A stretch of DNA of 39,010 nt, from the IMG/VR virus record IMGVR_UViG_3300027770_000118, positions 1 through 39,010 of that record. One strand, written 5' to 3'. Origin of the DNA: a virus. Position 1 is the stretch's first letter; each line of letters opens with the position of its first letter. Of the stretch, positions 31,212 to 37,926 are shown one piece after another. The notes beneath the pieces were generated by a model. That model saw only the letters and a list, made by a program, of their open reading frames with translations, ran no database searches and was not told the origin of the DNA. Both the position numbers and the translations under genes were made by a program.

Positions 31212-32019
31212 AAGGCGCAAAGCTAAAGGGGAACTCTCCCCAGTGGTTGAGTTGCTTCTTGGGCTTCATGGAATAGTGCTGCACTCCGGCCAGGGTCATC
31301 CTGACTGCGGCAGCGTAATCCTCACTGAGATACTCGAGTTTGCCGGGCATGGATTCCATGGCGAACGGCATCCATAAGGTCGGGAAGCGCTCGACGCGCA
31401 CATCGTCGCACCAATCGATCCTGTATGGGTTCTGCACTGCTGACCCTTCCAGCATCTCAAGCGTCTCCAGAAGGCATTTACGGGGGATTGCGAGGCATCC
31501 CGATGCGAACATGGTGATGGGCACCAGCTCAGAGGCGCACTCAGCGTCATTCACCTGGTGCTTCAGGGCCTGCAGGTGCTCCACCTTCGGACGTAGGGCC
31601 GGCCTGGCGGGCAGTGAGCGGCAGGAGTAGGGGATGCAGACCGTTGCCTGGTGTTTATGGGCCAACTCGGCCATGCGGACTACATCGGCCGCGGCGAACT
31701 CAATGTCGTGGTCTAGTTGGACCCAGACGTCCTTGCCAGAGTCGAGGAACCACTTCGTGGCACGGCACCGGGACCGGCTAATGAGGGCATCCTCCCGGAT
31801 GGTGCGCAGATCGGTCTGCCTGTCCGAGCGGGCGAACGTGGCCGTCAAGTCGACCCAGGACATCATGCACGCAGCACTGATGCCGCCGTAGGCGTACATT
31901 GAGACATGGATTGAAGGCCTGGTGCCTGCCTGGGTTATGCCTTGCACCTTGCTGGTCGGCTGCGGTGCGTAAATGAATGGATCTTCCATCTGTGGGGATT
32001 CTGCATTGGTTGCGGTCAT
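31201..32019 (-). CDS. GT-A-type glycosyltransferase
   Basis: The protein has 272 residues. YAYGGISAACMMSWVDL starts a Rossmann-like region. SRSRCRATKWFL (about 81-92) resembles the Arg-rich donor-binding loop seen in phage glycosyltransferases. VWVQLDHDIEF gives a DxD motif (Asp103, Asp105) for metal and nucleotide-sugar binding. ITMFASGCLAIPR and a later WCDDVRVERF segment fit the acceptor side. It could glycosylate a virion protein, phage DNA or host surface. The gene sits between replication and packaging genes, overlapping both neighbours, and so belongs to the core operon. Substrate unknown. Confidence 0.65.
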   Translation of the reverse strand: MTATNAESPQMEDPFIYAPQPTSKVQGITQAGTRPSIHVSMYAYGGISAACMMSWVDLTATFARSDRQTDLRTIREDALISRSRCRATKWFLDSGKDVWVQLDHDIEFAAADVVRMAELAHKHQATVCIPYSCRSLPARPALRPKVEHLQALKHQVNDAECASELVPITMFASGCLAIPRKCLLETLEMLEGSAVQNPYRIDWCDDVRVERFPTLWMPFAMESMPGKLEYLSEDYAAAVRMTLAGVQHYSMKPKKQLNHWGEFPFSFAPYAG

Positions 32020-32342
32020 GGTTCAATGTCCTTCCGTTGGCTTGCGAGGTAGAGCTCGTGGCCCTTGGTGATGAGGTAGACCACACTGCCTCGGGGCACC
32101 TGGCAGGCCGCGGCGACGTCGTTCAAACTGAGCCCACGGTCCCGCAGGTCGTAGGCCTTGCGAGCTAGGTCGGGTGTGTGCCTCTGCTCGGTGACTTCGG
32201 GCTCATCCTGCATCACCGGGGCTGGCGTGCCGTCTTCCTTGAACGCCATGTTTTTGGGATACGATAGCCAGCCACGCTGCACGCCTATTTTTATGAGTCT
32301 CGGTGCTTCCATCAATAGTTTTGTTGTGTTTGTTGTTATCAT
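32016..32342 (-). CDS. Small helix-turn-helix protein
   Basis: The protein has 108 residues. ATG 32342 overlaps the zinc-finger gene stop (ATGA). The C-terminal part, ARKAYDLRDRGLSLNDVAAACQVPRGSVVYLI (about 60-91), has a helix-turn-helix pattern. The N-terminal part has a basic helix and a linker. A regulator or a component acting on phage DNA is likely. A later start at residue 11 is possible. Confidence 0.6.
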   Translation of the reverse strand: MITTNTTKLLMEAPRLIKIGVQRGWLSYPKNMAFKEDGTPAPVMQDEPEVTEQRHTPDLARKAYDLRDRGLSLNDVAAACQVPRGSVVYLITKGHELYLASQRKDIEP

Positions 32343-32746
32343 AACAGTGAGATGTCCAATGGTGTTGTGGGCAAGTGCTGCCTACCCTGACCGCTTTTGT
32401 CTCCTATAAGCTGAAAGATGCGTTGTCTATGTGCCTTGCCACTGGCGCCGGGGTGGATAACGCAACCAAACCTCCCGTCTGCCTGGACAACGAGGTGGTT
32501 GCGCTGCTTGTCCCCACCTACCTCGGCACAGGCTGGGCACTGCCCGACCATTTTCGAGCCAATTTTGCGTAGGCCTGCCACTGTCAAGCGGTGTCTAGTG
32601 TTTGGGACGGGAGGGACGGCATTTCCGAACTCCATCCCTACCTTGGAGCAGCCTATACCCCCTTTTACACTTCTAGCACCGAGTTGAGAAGTGCCGTCCC
32701 CCGTCCCAAACGCTTGACAACGCTTGACAGATCCAGTGCTTTTCAT
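32339..32746 (-). CDS. Zinc-finger primase-like protein with palindrome-encoded N-terminus
   Basis: The protein has 135 residues. ATG 32746 overlaps the primase-helicase stop (ATGA), which supports this start. Residues 58-115 form a primase-type zinc ribbon: GLRKIGSKMVGQCPAC with Cys70 and Cys73, then GRFGCVIHP with Cys95 and His98, then RIFQLIGD. Residues about 6-56 are encoded by the palindromic element at 32581-32730, read in frame, and look low in structure. The upstream primase has no zinc site of its own, so this protein may supply it in trans. An alternative start at 32635 would drop the first half of the palindrome. Confidence 0.65.
   Translation of the reverse strand: MKSTGSVKRCQAFGTGDGTSQLGARSVKGGIGCSKVGMEFGNAVPPVPNTRHRLTVAGLRKIGSKMVGQCPACAEVGGDKQRNHLVVQADGRFGCVIHPGASGKAHRQRIFQLIGDKSGQGRQHLPTTPLDISLL
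32581..32730. repeat. 150-bp palindromic element inside a coding sequence
   Basis: Outer arms CTGTCAAGCG (32581-32590) and CGCTTGACAG (32721-32730) are exact inverted copies. Inner arms span 32600-32621 and 32692-32711 and are complementary over 20 bases, except for a 2-base insertion (GA at 32611-32612) in the left arm. The loop is 70 bases and contains a small hairpin (CTCCA/TGGAG, 32630-32648). CGCTTGACA is also repeated in tandem at 32711-32719 and 32721-32729. The whole element is read through by the zinc-finger gene without a stop. Confidence 0.85.
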
Positions 32747-34713
32747 GCGGTCAAGGTCACTTTCATGTAGCCTCTGGACTGTTGTTGTTGACCGTCGTTA
32801 CGTTGAATGTGGTTCGACGGGATGGCCTGGTGTATCTCCAGCATGAGTTCAGCGGCACGTTTCTGGAAACGCTTCTCCGGTTCAGGCCCCCATTCCTTGT
32901 TGTTACACATCGTCATGTAGGCGCTATACAGTTCCTCGGTTGTGATACAATCCGACGACATACTGCTACCCCTGACATGATTAACGGCAAAGTATCTAAC
33001 ACTGTCGCTCTCGCTCAACAGATTATCAATCATCCAGCGCTGCCTCTCGGTAACCGGGAACGGCCTACCGGCCTGCATGACCCGGCATAGATCCTCCGCG
33101 CCCTCCAGGAACCAGTTCAATATACCGCTGCCCTCGCGCTCAATCATCACATCGTGGTAATTGGGGATCACCTTCTCGGGCTTGGGCTGGCTGAAGTCGA
33201 GCAGCAGCAACCTTCTTGACCACGCGCCCAGGTCTCCCTGCACGTTCACCTTCAGCCTGCTATTAGCCGTCACAATGACGTTCCAGTCGCCCACCACGGC
33301 TTTCGCCCCGCTCTTCCCCTTAAACTCCACGCTCAGTCTATCGCCGCCCGTCAGCGCCTTGAGCTGCTGGCTCTCCTCGCAGCTTAGAAAGTCCGGCGGC
33401 ACGTCGCTGCCGATCAGCAGTGTCCTATCGTGGAAGTTGGCCAGCTCGAACCGGCTGCCCAGGTGCGCGGTCCGCAGCTCGCTGCAGTTCTCATCACCCA
33501 CCAACCGCCGCACCAGCCCGGTCACCGTGCTCTTCCCGCCGCCACCAGTTCCCGTCAGCAGCAGTATGACCTGCGGCCTGTTCCTCTGCAGCAGCGCCAG
33601 GCCGCCCCATCTCTGCAGCAGCATCTGGTCATCCTTCTCGGGCAGCGCATGGTCCATGAAGGCCTGCCACATCGGGCTTTGCGCATCCTGGACATACCGC
33701 ACCGGCGTCTGGTTCCTGCTCATCCACTCCGGCCCAAAGCCATGCATCTCATACGGCGCAGCCCTTAAATCCACCATGACATTGGAGCAGTGGACCACGC
33801 TGTCGGGCCTGGAGAACGGGTTGCGCTCCACCTGCAGCCGCCCGATCAGATCCACCACCTGATCCGCAAAGCTCGCTGTCAGCCGCGTCAGCAGGGCCGG
33901 CAGCCGCGGGTCCTCCGTAGACGCCACTTGATCCAACAGAACGCGCCTGGCGGTCTCCAGAGCCTTTTGCGCCATCTCCTCGCGGCTCATGCTCATCCAG
34001 ATCCCGCGGTCCCCATGATACCAGTAGTGCATCCCGGTGACCGCATCGAACAAGAACCGCTCCTTGTGCGCCATGTAGGCCGCGAAGAACGGTGCCTGCA
34101 GATTGCCGGTGCCGCTCCGGCCAAACGTCCAGGGCACGCCATGCTGCCGGATCAACTGCGCGATCTCATCCCTGCTTCCCGGCGCCGGCCATCCCTCGGG
34201 CCAGCGTATCTGTGAGAACTCCAGCGCCACCGGCGGCCTGTCCACCAGCACGCTATACTCGCACCCGCTCGGGTGCAGGCCCTTGACAGTGCTCAAATTA
34301 CCCGTGCTTCGCCACTCGTACAGCGGCTTGCCGAGCAACCGATCACCCACCTGTATCATCTCGGTCGTGCTCCGCTCCGCGCAGGGCCCCGGGTACTTGC
34401 CCGTCACCCGCACCCCAATCTGCGCCCCGCGTTTGCCCTTCCACCTCGCACTGCCCTGCAGCACCGGGTTCACTCTCAGGAACGCCTCCAAACTCCCCTC
34501 ATCATCGAAGTCAATGGCGCACAGCCCGCCGGAGAACTCCCCGAGCCTCACCGCCACGTTCCCGTGCTCGAGCATGACCCGGTACACCTCCCGCTTGGTG
34601 CTCTCCATGGTCTCCTGGGTGTACTTCACCATCGGAATCTTGGTCCCCGGGCCCTGCGGCACCAGGAACAGCGGCGTGCCCAGCCAGCCCTCGATCTCTT
34701 GCGTCGTCATCAT
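32743..34713 (-). CDS. Primase-polymerase / SF3 helicase fusion
   Basis: The protein has 656 residues. The N-terminal prim-pol-like part has GGLCAIDFDDEG with Asp68 and Asp70 as metal ligands. The expected Ser-Gly-x-x-His motif that follows in this family is not seen; KRGAQIGVRV lies in its place. A D5-like linker (about 200-280) leads to the SF3 helicase: Walker A GTGGGGKST (388-396), a Walker B-like strand (RTLLIGSDVP) and motif C (VIVTANSRL). The C-terminal part has the helical extension of the family. It would unwind and possibly prime phage DNA. ATG 34713 overlaps the upstream stop (ATGA). Helicase call strong, primase activity uncertain. Confidence 0.8.
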   Translation of the reverse strand: MMTTQEIEGWLGTPLFLVPQGPGTKIPMVKYTQETMESTKREVYRVMLEHGNVAVRLGEFSGGLCAIDFDDEGSLEAFLRVNPVLQGSARWKGKRGAQIGVRVTGKYPGPCAERSTTEMIQVGDRLLGKPLYEWRSTGNLSTVKGLHPSGCEYSVLVDRPPVALEFSQIRWPEGWPAPGSRDEIAQLIRQHGVPWTFGRSGTGNLQAPFFAAYMAHKERFLFDAVTGMHYWYHGDRGIWMSMSREEMAQKALETARRVLLDQVASTEDPRLPALLTRLTASFADQVVDLIGRLQVERNPFSRPDSVVHCSNVMVDLRAAPYEMHGFGPEWMSRNQTPVRYVQDAQSPMWQAFMDHALPEKDDQMLLQRWGGLALLQRNRPQVILLLTGTGGGGKSTVTGLVRRLVGDENCSELRTAHLGSRFELANFHDRTLLIGSDVPPDFLSCEESQQLKALTGGDRLSVEFKGKSGAKAVVGDWNVIVTANSRLKVNVQGDLGAWSRRLLLLDFSQPKPEKVIPNYHDVMIEREGSGILNWFLEGAEDLCRVMQAGRPFPVTERQRWMIDNLLSESDSVRYFAVNHVRGSSMSSDCITTEELYSAYMTMCNNKEWGPEPEKRFQKRAAELMLEIHQAIPSNHIQRNDGQQQQSRGYMKVTLTA

Positions 34714-37143: not shown

Positions 37144-37926
37144 TCAGTAGGGTAGGTCATCCTCTTCCAACTTGACCTGGGCCTCCTCGTCGGCCTTGAA
37201 CTTGGTCTGATACCACGTCAGCCCATTGATCAGGCGCTTGTCGTCCGCGGTCTGCTTCACCTCGGCCCGGGCCTTGGGCAGCCAGTGCTCAATGAGGCTC
37301 GTGATGCTCTCCTCGGTCAGCTCCCGGAGCTCGATGCCCTTGTGCTTGCCGACGTGCACCTTGACCTTCGACGGGTCATCCGTCGCCGGCTGTCCACCGC
37401 CCGAGGTCTTGCGGAAGCTCGAGTCCCCGCTCGCCGGCGCTGCCTTGCCATCGGCGCCATCCTTCGCAGGCCGGTCCTGCAACCGCACCCACAGCCCGCT
37501 TGCTGCCAGCGGCTCGCCTGCCTTGTGTGCCATGATCAGCTTGATGTTCGCGTAGGTCTTGCTGCCGTCCGCGCTCTGCTCGTGCCCGATGACCAGGCTG
37601 GCCGGGCGCCCGATGAGGCTCTCCAGGTCCAGGCTCTTGTTCTCCTGGTCGGTCAATTTCCGGCCGAACCAGTCCTTGAGGAACTTGGTTAGCGCCGCCT
37701 TCTCATGCAGGCTCGGCACCATGGGCTTGGTGAACACCACCCAGGGCTGCACCGGGTCCCTGCTGTCGTCCTGCAGTTCGATCTCGAAGGCGAACTTGAA
37801 CTTTTGTTTGATGCCGTACTCGGTCTCGTACTCTTTGAGCTGAGTCACGTCCACGCACACCGCACGGCCCGAGAACTCGGGGCACGGCGCGAAGTCCTTC
37901 TTACCGCCTGTTGCACTGATTATCAT
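37144..37926 (-). CDS. Single-strand DNA-binding-like protein
   Basis: The protein has 260 residues. The first half (about 20-135) is beta-rich: RAVCVDVTQLKEYETEYGIKQKFKFAFEIEL, then PWVVFTKPMVPSLHEKAALTKFLKDWFGRKL and ASLVIGHEQSADGSKTYANIKLIM. This resembles OB-fold replication proteins of phages. A linker (Lys/Gly/Ala-rich) leads to VHVGKHKGIELREL, a small module also found after exonuclease X, and to an acidic tail (KLEEDDLPY) like those that recruit partners in SSB. It probably coats single-stranded DNA and interacts with the replication proteins encoded next to it. The call is by pattern. Confidence 0.6.
   Translation of the reverse strand: MIISATGGKKDFAPCPEFSGRAVCVDVTQLKEYETEYGIKQKFKFAFEIELQDDSRDPVQPWVVFTKPMVPSLHEKAALTKFLKDWFGRKLTDQENKSLDLESLIGRPASLVIGHEQSADGSKTYANIKLIMAHKAGEPLAASGLWVRLQDRPAKDGADGKAAPASGDSSFRKTSGGGQPATDDPSKVKVHVGKHKGIELRELTEESITSLIEHWLPKARAEVKQTADDKRLINGLTWYQTKFKADEEAQVKLEEDDLPY

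Follow-up and report, generated by a model that had tools for sequence, protein, structure and literature searches.

A long palindrome behind a phage primase-helicase gene is best explained as an iteron-type replication origin with an incidental reading frame

Introduction

A 39,010-nt stretch of viral DNA (IMG/VR record IMGVR_UViG_3300027770_000118; "the window" below is this whole stretch) contains a 150-bp palindrome which lies within an open reading frame for a zinc-finger protein, directly behind a gene for a primase-helicase. The question this locus raises is whether the palindrome is a piece of coding DNA, inserted into the zinc-finger gene, or a signal which happens to be readable. An earlier note on this DNA gave as its main claim that it resembles the mobile palindromic elements (RPE) which insert in frame into genes of Rickettsia, and named a replication origin and protein-binding iterons only in passing. 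Here we set the palindrome beside its close viral relatives, distant loci with related primase-helicases, and known replication origins.

Results and discussion

A single strong palindrome follows the primase-helicase gene

The gene order on the minus strand is the primase-helicase gene (34713-32743), 12 nt between its stop codon and the start of the palindrome, the palindrome itself (32730-32581) and a zinc-finger coding region running on to 32339. The features concerned are as follows:

32743-34713, minus strand: primase-helicase with a Prim-Pol-like N terminus, D5_N and DUF5906; proposed initiator
32588-32746, minus strand: in-frame 5' extension of the zinc-finger ORF, 53 codons, nearly all of it putative origin DNA
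32581-32730, minus strand: proposed replication origin, a 150-bp imperfect palindrome of inverted iterons around a spacer
32713-32728, minus strand: outer repeats, GTCAAG twice in the 5' arm with 10-nt spacing
32694-32706, minus strand: 5' iteron pair, GGACGG at 32706-32701 and 32699-32694, 7-nt spacing
32633-32680, minus strand: spacer or apical loop, candidate melting region, only modestly A+T-richer than the window (GC 0.52 against 0.59)
32605-32619, minus strand: 3' iteron pair, CCGTCC at 32619-32614 and 32610-32605, 9-nt spacing
32339-32587, minus strand: body of the zinc-finger gene, TTG at 32587 being the first possible start within the part that homologues share

The inverse of the outer repeat, CTTGAC, occurs at 32588-32583, and another CTTGAC lies at the end of the primase gene. 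The outer arms CTGTCAAGCG and CGCTTGACAG are exact (32581-32590 and 32721-32730) and lie within a longer arm pair of 31 nt with 90% complementarity (32581-32611/32700-32730), and there is a second pair of 20 nt with 85% complementarity (32613-32632/32681-32700); no comparable second inverted-repeat pair was found in the 39-kb window. Folding, which the earlier note had proposed as a check, gave -83.9 kcal/mol for the sense RNA (z = -8.9) and z = -10.2 for the DNA, and none of 200 shuffles was as stable whether folded as RNA or as DNA; the palindrome with its exact outer arms is thus real and far above chance. The tandem copy described on one side is also there (CGCTTGACA at 32711-32719 and 32721-32729). 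An intrinsic terminator was considered and rejected because no T-run follows the stem, the sequence after it on the transcribed strand being TGGCAGGCC.

The element has one copy and one site

Searching with the zinc-finger ORF as query returned 80 viral loci, and those which cover the region have the element at the same place. The core pattern was found in 69 viral stretches with one match in each, and the matches that were checked lie directly before the zinc-finger gene, so that the site is constant in the relatives, with the primase-helicase gene on one side and the zinc-finger gene on the other, and each contig has one copy. No zinc-finger homologue above noise was found in the phage collection, and two scans with degenerate patterns, aimed at distant viral relatives, yielded no loci that could be used.

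These results bear on the main claim of the earlier note, that a mobile or domesticated palindromic element (RPE-, MITE- or REPIN-like) was inserted in frame into the zinc-finger gene. Terminal inverted repeats, a frame which is open in both clades of close relatives and the lack of the segment from the protein of distant homologues are what such an insertion would leave, but RPE, REPIN and MITE families are dispersed, with several copies at different genes, while here a single copy per contig is always at one locus. The exact core pattern was found nowhere in 84,980 bacterial and archaeal genomes, and a search of the phage collection gave no DNA match to the element. Moreover, distant relatives (below) have at an equivalent place an element which is built alike but differs in sequence. 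The mobile-element reading is therefore largely refuted, and we consider it highly improbable.

The close relatives form two clades. Compared with the window, clade B has a stretch from primase stop to palindrome that is 11 nt shorter and a spacer that is 1 nt shorter, and because of these length differences it reads the 5' arm in a different frame; the frame into the zinc finger is still open. One relative (L081) has a 1-nt deletion in the 3' arm which breaks the frame, possibly an assembly error since its contig ends inside the element. In two members of clade B (G016 and G021) about 1.1 kb of additional DNA, which the window lacks, separates the primase-helicase gene from a PIF1/Dda-like helicase gene at the position of window 34714/34725.

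The reading frame through the palindrome is probably a by-product

The zinc-finger ORF (32339-32746, minus strand) is open throughout, and its ATG is indeed coupled to the upstream stop codon, overlapping the primase stop as ATGA (32743-32746). The description of the element as read in frame is therefore formally true, in both clades, but it does not extend to the protein, as the segment showed no protein-level constraint and its residues are missing from distant homologues. Pairwise nonsynonymous/synonymous ratios within clade A were 6.5 for the 5' arm, 0.73 for the loop and 1.2 for the 3' arm, compared to 0.15 for the zinc-finger body and 0.10 for the primase tail (these are simple counts which the stem constraint may distort, but the contrast is large). 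Aligning homologues, as had been advised, showed that some do lack the segment: 15 distant ones are without it and start about 20 residues ahead of the CPxC motif. An AlphaFold model of the ORF had low confidence to residue 57 and was ordered from about 58 to 117, which adds little because the alignment is shallow across the N-terminal segment. That the frame is open in both clades argues only weakly for translation, because 50 codons without a stop are not rare in sequence of this kind.

An extent of the zinc-finger gene over the full ORF 32339-32746 is thus not supported; homologues and codon-level selection place its body at about 32587-32339, suggesting that translation of the protein probably begins at the TTG at 32587, close to the 3' foot of the palindrome, and that the in-frame N-terminal part would be origin DNA. 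The reading frame would then be a by-product of an origin which sits between two genes, and ORF callers may more generally extend genes through origins. A primase/zinc-finger fusion or a translational bypass across the hairpin was also considered, because CTTGACC lies in frame on both sides in some relatives, and was dropped because the take-off and landing codons are mismatched across both clades, the primase ends much like its homologues, and the homologues have separate genes.

Direct repeats change in concert and the stem keeps its pairing

In two relatives (L049 and L053) all four GGGACGG iterons have become GGGGCGG, the two on one arm included. A hairpin alone predicts change across the pair only, whereas a sequence-specific protein predicts that direct copies change as well, and so this concerted change suggests that such a protein recognises the repeats. 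Pairing in the stem was intact in 97.9% of cells, and both partners had changed in four of the pairs (16 doubly changed cells compared to 6.3 in shuffles); two of these pairs, 10/157, a compensatory change in the outer arm, and 39/128, fall outside the iterons and indicate that the palindrome is kept beyond them. On the sense strand G.U cells outnumber A.C cells by 54 to 9, the pairs affected being about equal in number (7 and 6).

As the neighbouring genes share its strand the palindrome would be transcribed, and it might act as an RNA hairpin in a polycistronic mRNA, either as an RNase III processing site or in control of zinc-finger translation. The great stability of the sense RNA, the compensatory changes which keep pairing, the excess of G.U cells over A.C cells and a loop with start-like codons and A/G-rich stretches are all in keeping with this. 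Against it, direct copies on one arm change along with those of the other arm, a search of Rfam with the element gave no match, and the distant elements described below consist of short iteron arms, usually some 60-110 nt apart, which keep a 9-nt spacing and lie before, after or inside the zinc-finger ORF. We therefore regard a function as an RNA hairpin as unlikely.

Many distant primase-helicase loci share the iteron design with different iterons

Searching bacterial genomes with the primase alignment as query gave 80 loci, the closest of which are mostly metagenome-assembled genomes labelled as Verrucomicrobiota or other PVC lineages; identity was 56% for the closest (L223) and about 30-38% for the next ones. 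From these labels on distant primase loci alone, the host of the virus is probably a member of the Verrucomicrobiota. We sought the strongest inverted repeat anywhere in the locus in 51 distant loci, and in 27 of them it lay between -60 and +450 nt from the end of the primase match, compared to 3.6 expected (binomial P = 3e-18), although in one of these 27 (L236) the scoring inverted repeat differs from the iteron array, which is nearer the gene. In the other 24 the strongest repeat lay away from the gene end, some having a weaker iteron array there and others none that was seen.

The distant elements share a design in which two or three tandem iterons of 6-7 nt are followed by an A+T-richer spacer and then by the same iterons inverted. 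We tabulated 37 elements, which include the window and one close relative; each was selected as the best inverted repeat close to the gene (in L258 and L267 it is elsewhere in the locus), so their symmetry is partly due to selection, but this choice does not account for the exact 9-nt spacing or for the positional excess. In 28 of the 37 one 6-mer is present at least four times across both strands, same-strand iterons are spaced by exactly 9 nt in 63 of 68 cases, and the spacer has a lower GC content than its locus in 33 of 35 (P = 7e-8; 0.44 compared to 0.54 in the distant relatives). The iteron itself varies by lineage (GGGACG, GGGACA, CGGACG, TGGACG, GGTACG, ACACGG, CATACG); L223 has flanking AACTC/GGAGTTGGAAA motifs similar to those of the window, with iterons of the GGAAC type. 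The window element matches the design with GGACGG twice and CCGTCC twice, plus outer copies of GTCAAG, although its 5' pair is spaced by 7 nt rather than 9.

The position of the element also varies: in L247, L248, L260, L276 and the window it is between the two genes, and in others it follows the zinc-finger motif or lies inside the zinc-finger ORF. In L224, L226, L227, L237, L241, L243, L245 and others the iterons fall within the 3' half of that ORF and are read as LGTLGT- or LGRLGR-like peptides.

The primase-helicase resembles initiators which bind iterons behind their own genes

The primase-helicase has domain matches to D5_N and DUF5906 above the cut-off and to Prim-Pol marginally below its own. 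Chain 7ola is among its solved relatives by sequence profile, and the same entry, titled as the SaPI5 primase-helicase, ranks first in the PDB in a fold search with the primase-helicase model. The Rep protein of SaPI5 is a D5_N primase-helicase, and the C-terminal domain of SaPI Rep recognises iterons directly downstream of its own gene (PMC7581432). In PICIs the origin is immediately 3' of the initiator gene and has an AT-rich region flanked by two sets of iterons, and a cloned PICI pri-ori unit replicates (PMC6092414). The window element is like the origins of SaPI5 and EcCICFT073 in lying immediately 3' of a primase-helicase gene, with one iteron set on each side of a spacer, and the enzyme, a primase with a D5-type helicase and a C-terminal domain presumed to bind DNA, is closest in fold to that of SaPI5. 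The A+T-richness of the spacer is significant in the distant relatives but only modest in the window (GC 0.52 against 0.59). It differs in that the arms form a long, near-perfect palindrome and the putative origin is inside an open reading frame. The replicon differs too, being a tailed phage rather than a satellite, with its own terminase large subunit, a portal/head-tail adaptor match and other large genes; the origin is PICI-like, but the window as a whole is not a PICI.

In plasmid pRN1 a 100-bp stem-loop 3' of the primase-SF3 helicase gene must be intact, the sequence of the stem is poorly conserved between plasmids, and the same kind of stem-loop origin has been proposed for Bordetella phages including BIP-1 (PMC4234260). 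The window likewise has a stem-loop of the 100-bp class, with conserved stem symmetry, 3' of a replication gene, as pRN1 has directly behind a gene for an archaeo-eukaryotic-type primase with SF3 helicase and winged helix, where stem integrity is needed; no iterons were recognised in pRN1. The alpha protein of satellite phage P4 is also a primase-helicase with a winged helix domain which binds origin repeats (PMC4234260). Unlike the window enzyme it has a Toprim (bacterial-type) primase domain. The coding sequence which contains the lambda origin is gene O. That origin has its iterons inside coding sequence (PMC11447400), as in the window, but the lambda initiator is unrelated, and the window frame runs through the putative origin with no protein-level constraint.

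Inverted iterons would equally suit a repressor or a small terminase, and the element might be the binding site of another protein, an operator or a packaging (pac) start. A terminase large-subunit gene lies about 2-4 kb downstream, an unassigned small gene (32016-32342) follows the zinc-finger gene, and the window ends (1 and 39010) are close together in several relatives, which shows that the genome is circular or circularly permuted, as fits headful packaging. However, many distantly related elements have their arrays behind the primase-helicase gene, and this enzyme family binds iterons behind its own gene (PMC7581432), so that an operator or pac site seems quite improbable.

The palindrome as a probable replication origin

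Its location, iteron architecture and single copy, the concerted iteron change and the paired changes, the recurrence of the design with different iterons beside distant relatives of the enzyme, and the resemblance of the enzyme fold to the SaPI5 primase-helicase together suggest that the palindrome is probably a replication origin of the iteron/stem-loop type seen in PICIs and pRN1, here belonging to a new group of phages. Within this known kind the length of the palindrome is unusual, and the reading frame is best explained as incidental. The two possibilities raised in passing by the earlier note, an origin and protein-binding iterons, are thus the ones that the data favour. By analogy with these systems we infer that a protein binds the repeats, the spacer melts and replication starts at the element. 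The primase-helicase encoded immediately upstream would bind GGACGG twice in one arm and the inverse twice in the other, probably assisted by the outer GTCAAG repeats. Two of its oligomers would form on the arms in head-to-head orientation and open the spacer, after which they would prime and load the replisome. An uncultivated phage group thereby gains a specific candidate for its origin and another for its initiator.

The sense-strand GC skew goes from about +0.2 upstream to negative downstream of the element in the window and nine relatives, which are not independent as they contain the same genes; in the distant loci the effect is weak (P = 0.02). The sign changes at the element (window 31-36 kb) although the genes there are on one strand. 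Under the usual leading-strand convention this sign fits a terminus better than an origin, and so the skew is compatible with the origin reading but is not proof of it.

A possible common design and candidate origins in cultured phages

Phages, PICIs, elements of PVC bacteria and perhaps pRN-type archaeal plasmids may share one origin design, a suggestion which we make tentatively, in which two inverted sets of 6-7-nt iterons, one every 9 bp, lie around a melting spacer adjoining the gene for a D5/SF3-type primase-helicase, and the iteron sequence shifts as the initiator diverges. If so, the "stem-loop" of the pRN1 type would be inverted iterons, and the arms in these presumed Verrucomicrobiota phages would have grown into a long selected palindrome. 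This links two literatures, on PICI iteron origins and on the stem-loop origins of pRN1-like plasmids, and the rule of 9-bp inverted iterons by a D5-type primase-helicase gene predicts origins elsewhere, including the cultured phages phi105 and BPP-1.

Among seven cultured phages examined which have similar primases, three (9NA, Wrath and PF672P2) showed no clear inverted repeat behind the primase gene, and in the other four the strongest inverted repeat was just behind it; this is clearly built of iterons in BPP-1 and phi105 and iteron-like in a Microcystis phage, the fourth being a Methanoculleus virus. In Bordetella phage BPP-1 (NC_005357.1, 26607-26710) intergenic 9-bp inverted iterons, TTGCCTCGT twice and ACGAGGCAA twice, flank an A+T-rich spacer and lie about 470 nt behind the primase gene. 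They are at another position than the stem-loop proposed for its close relative BIP-1, and thus constitute a candidate origin different from that of PMC4234260. Bacillus phage phi105 (HM072038.1, about 33902-34015) has inverted iterons, TGTTACTTTTGTTACTT and AGTAACAAAAGTAACA, around an A+T-rich spacer 44 nt behind a primase-like gene, and Microcystis phage Mae-JY02 (PP395635.1, about 37154-37296) has a strong inverted repeat with GGGGAAGAT-like units behind its primase gene.
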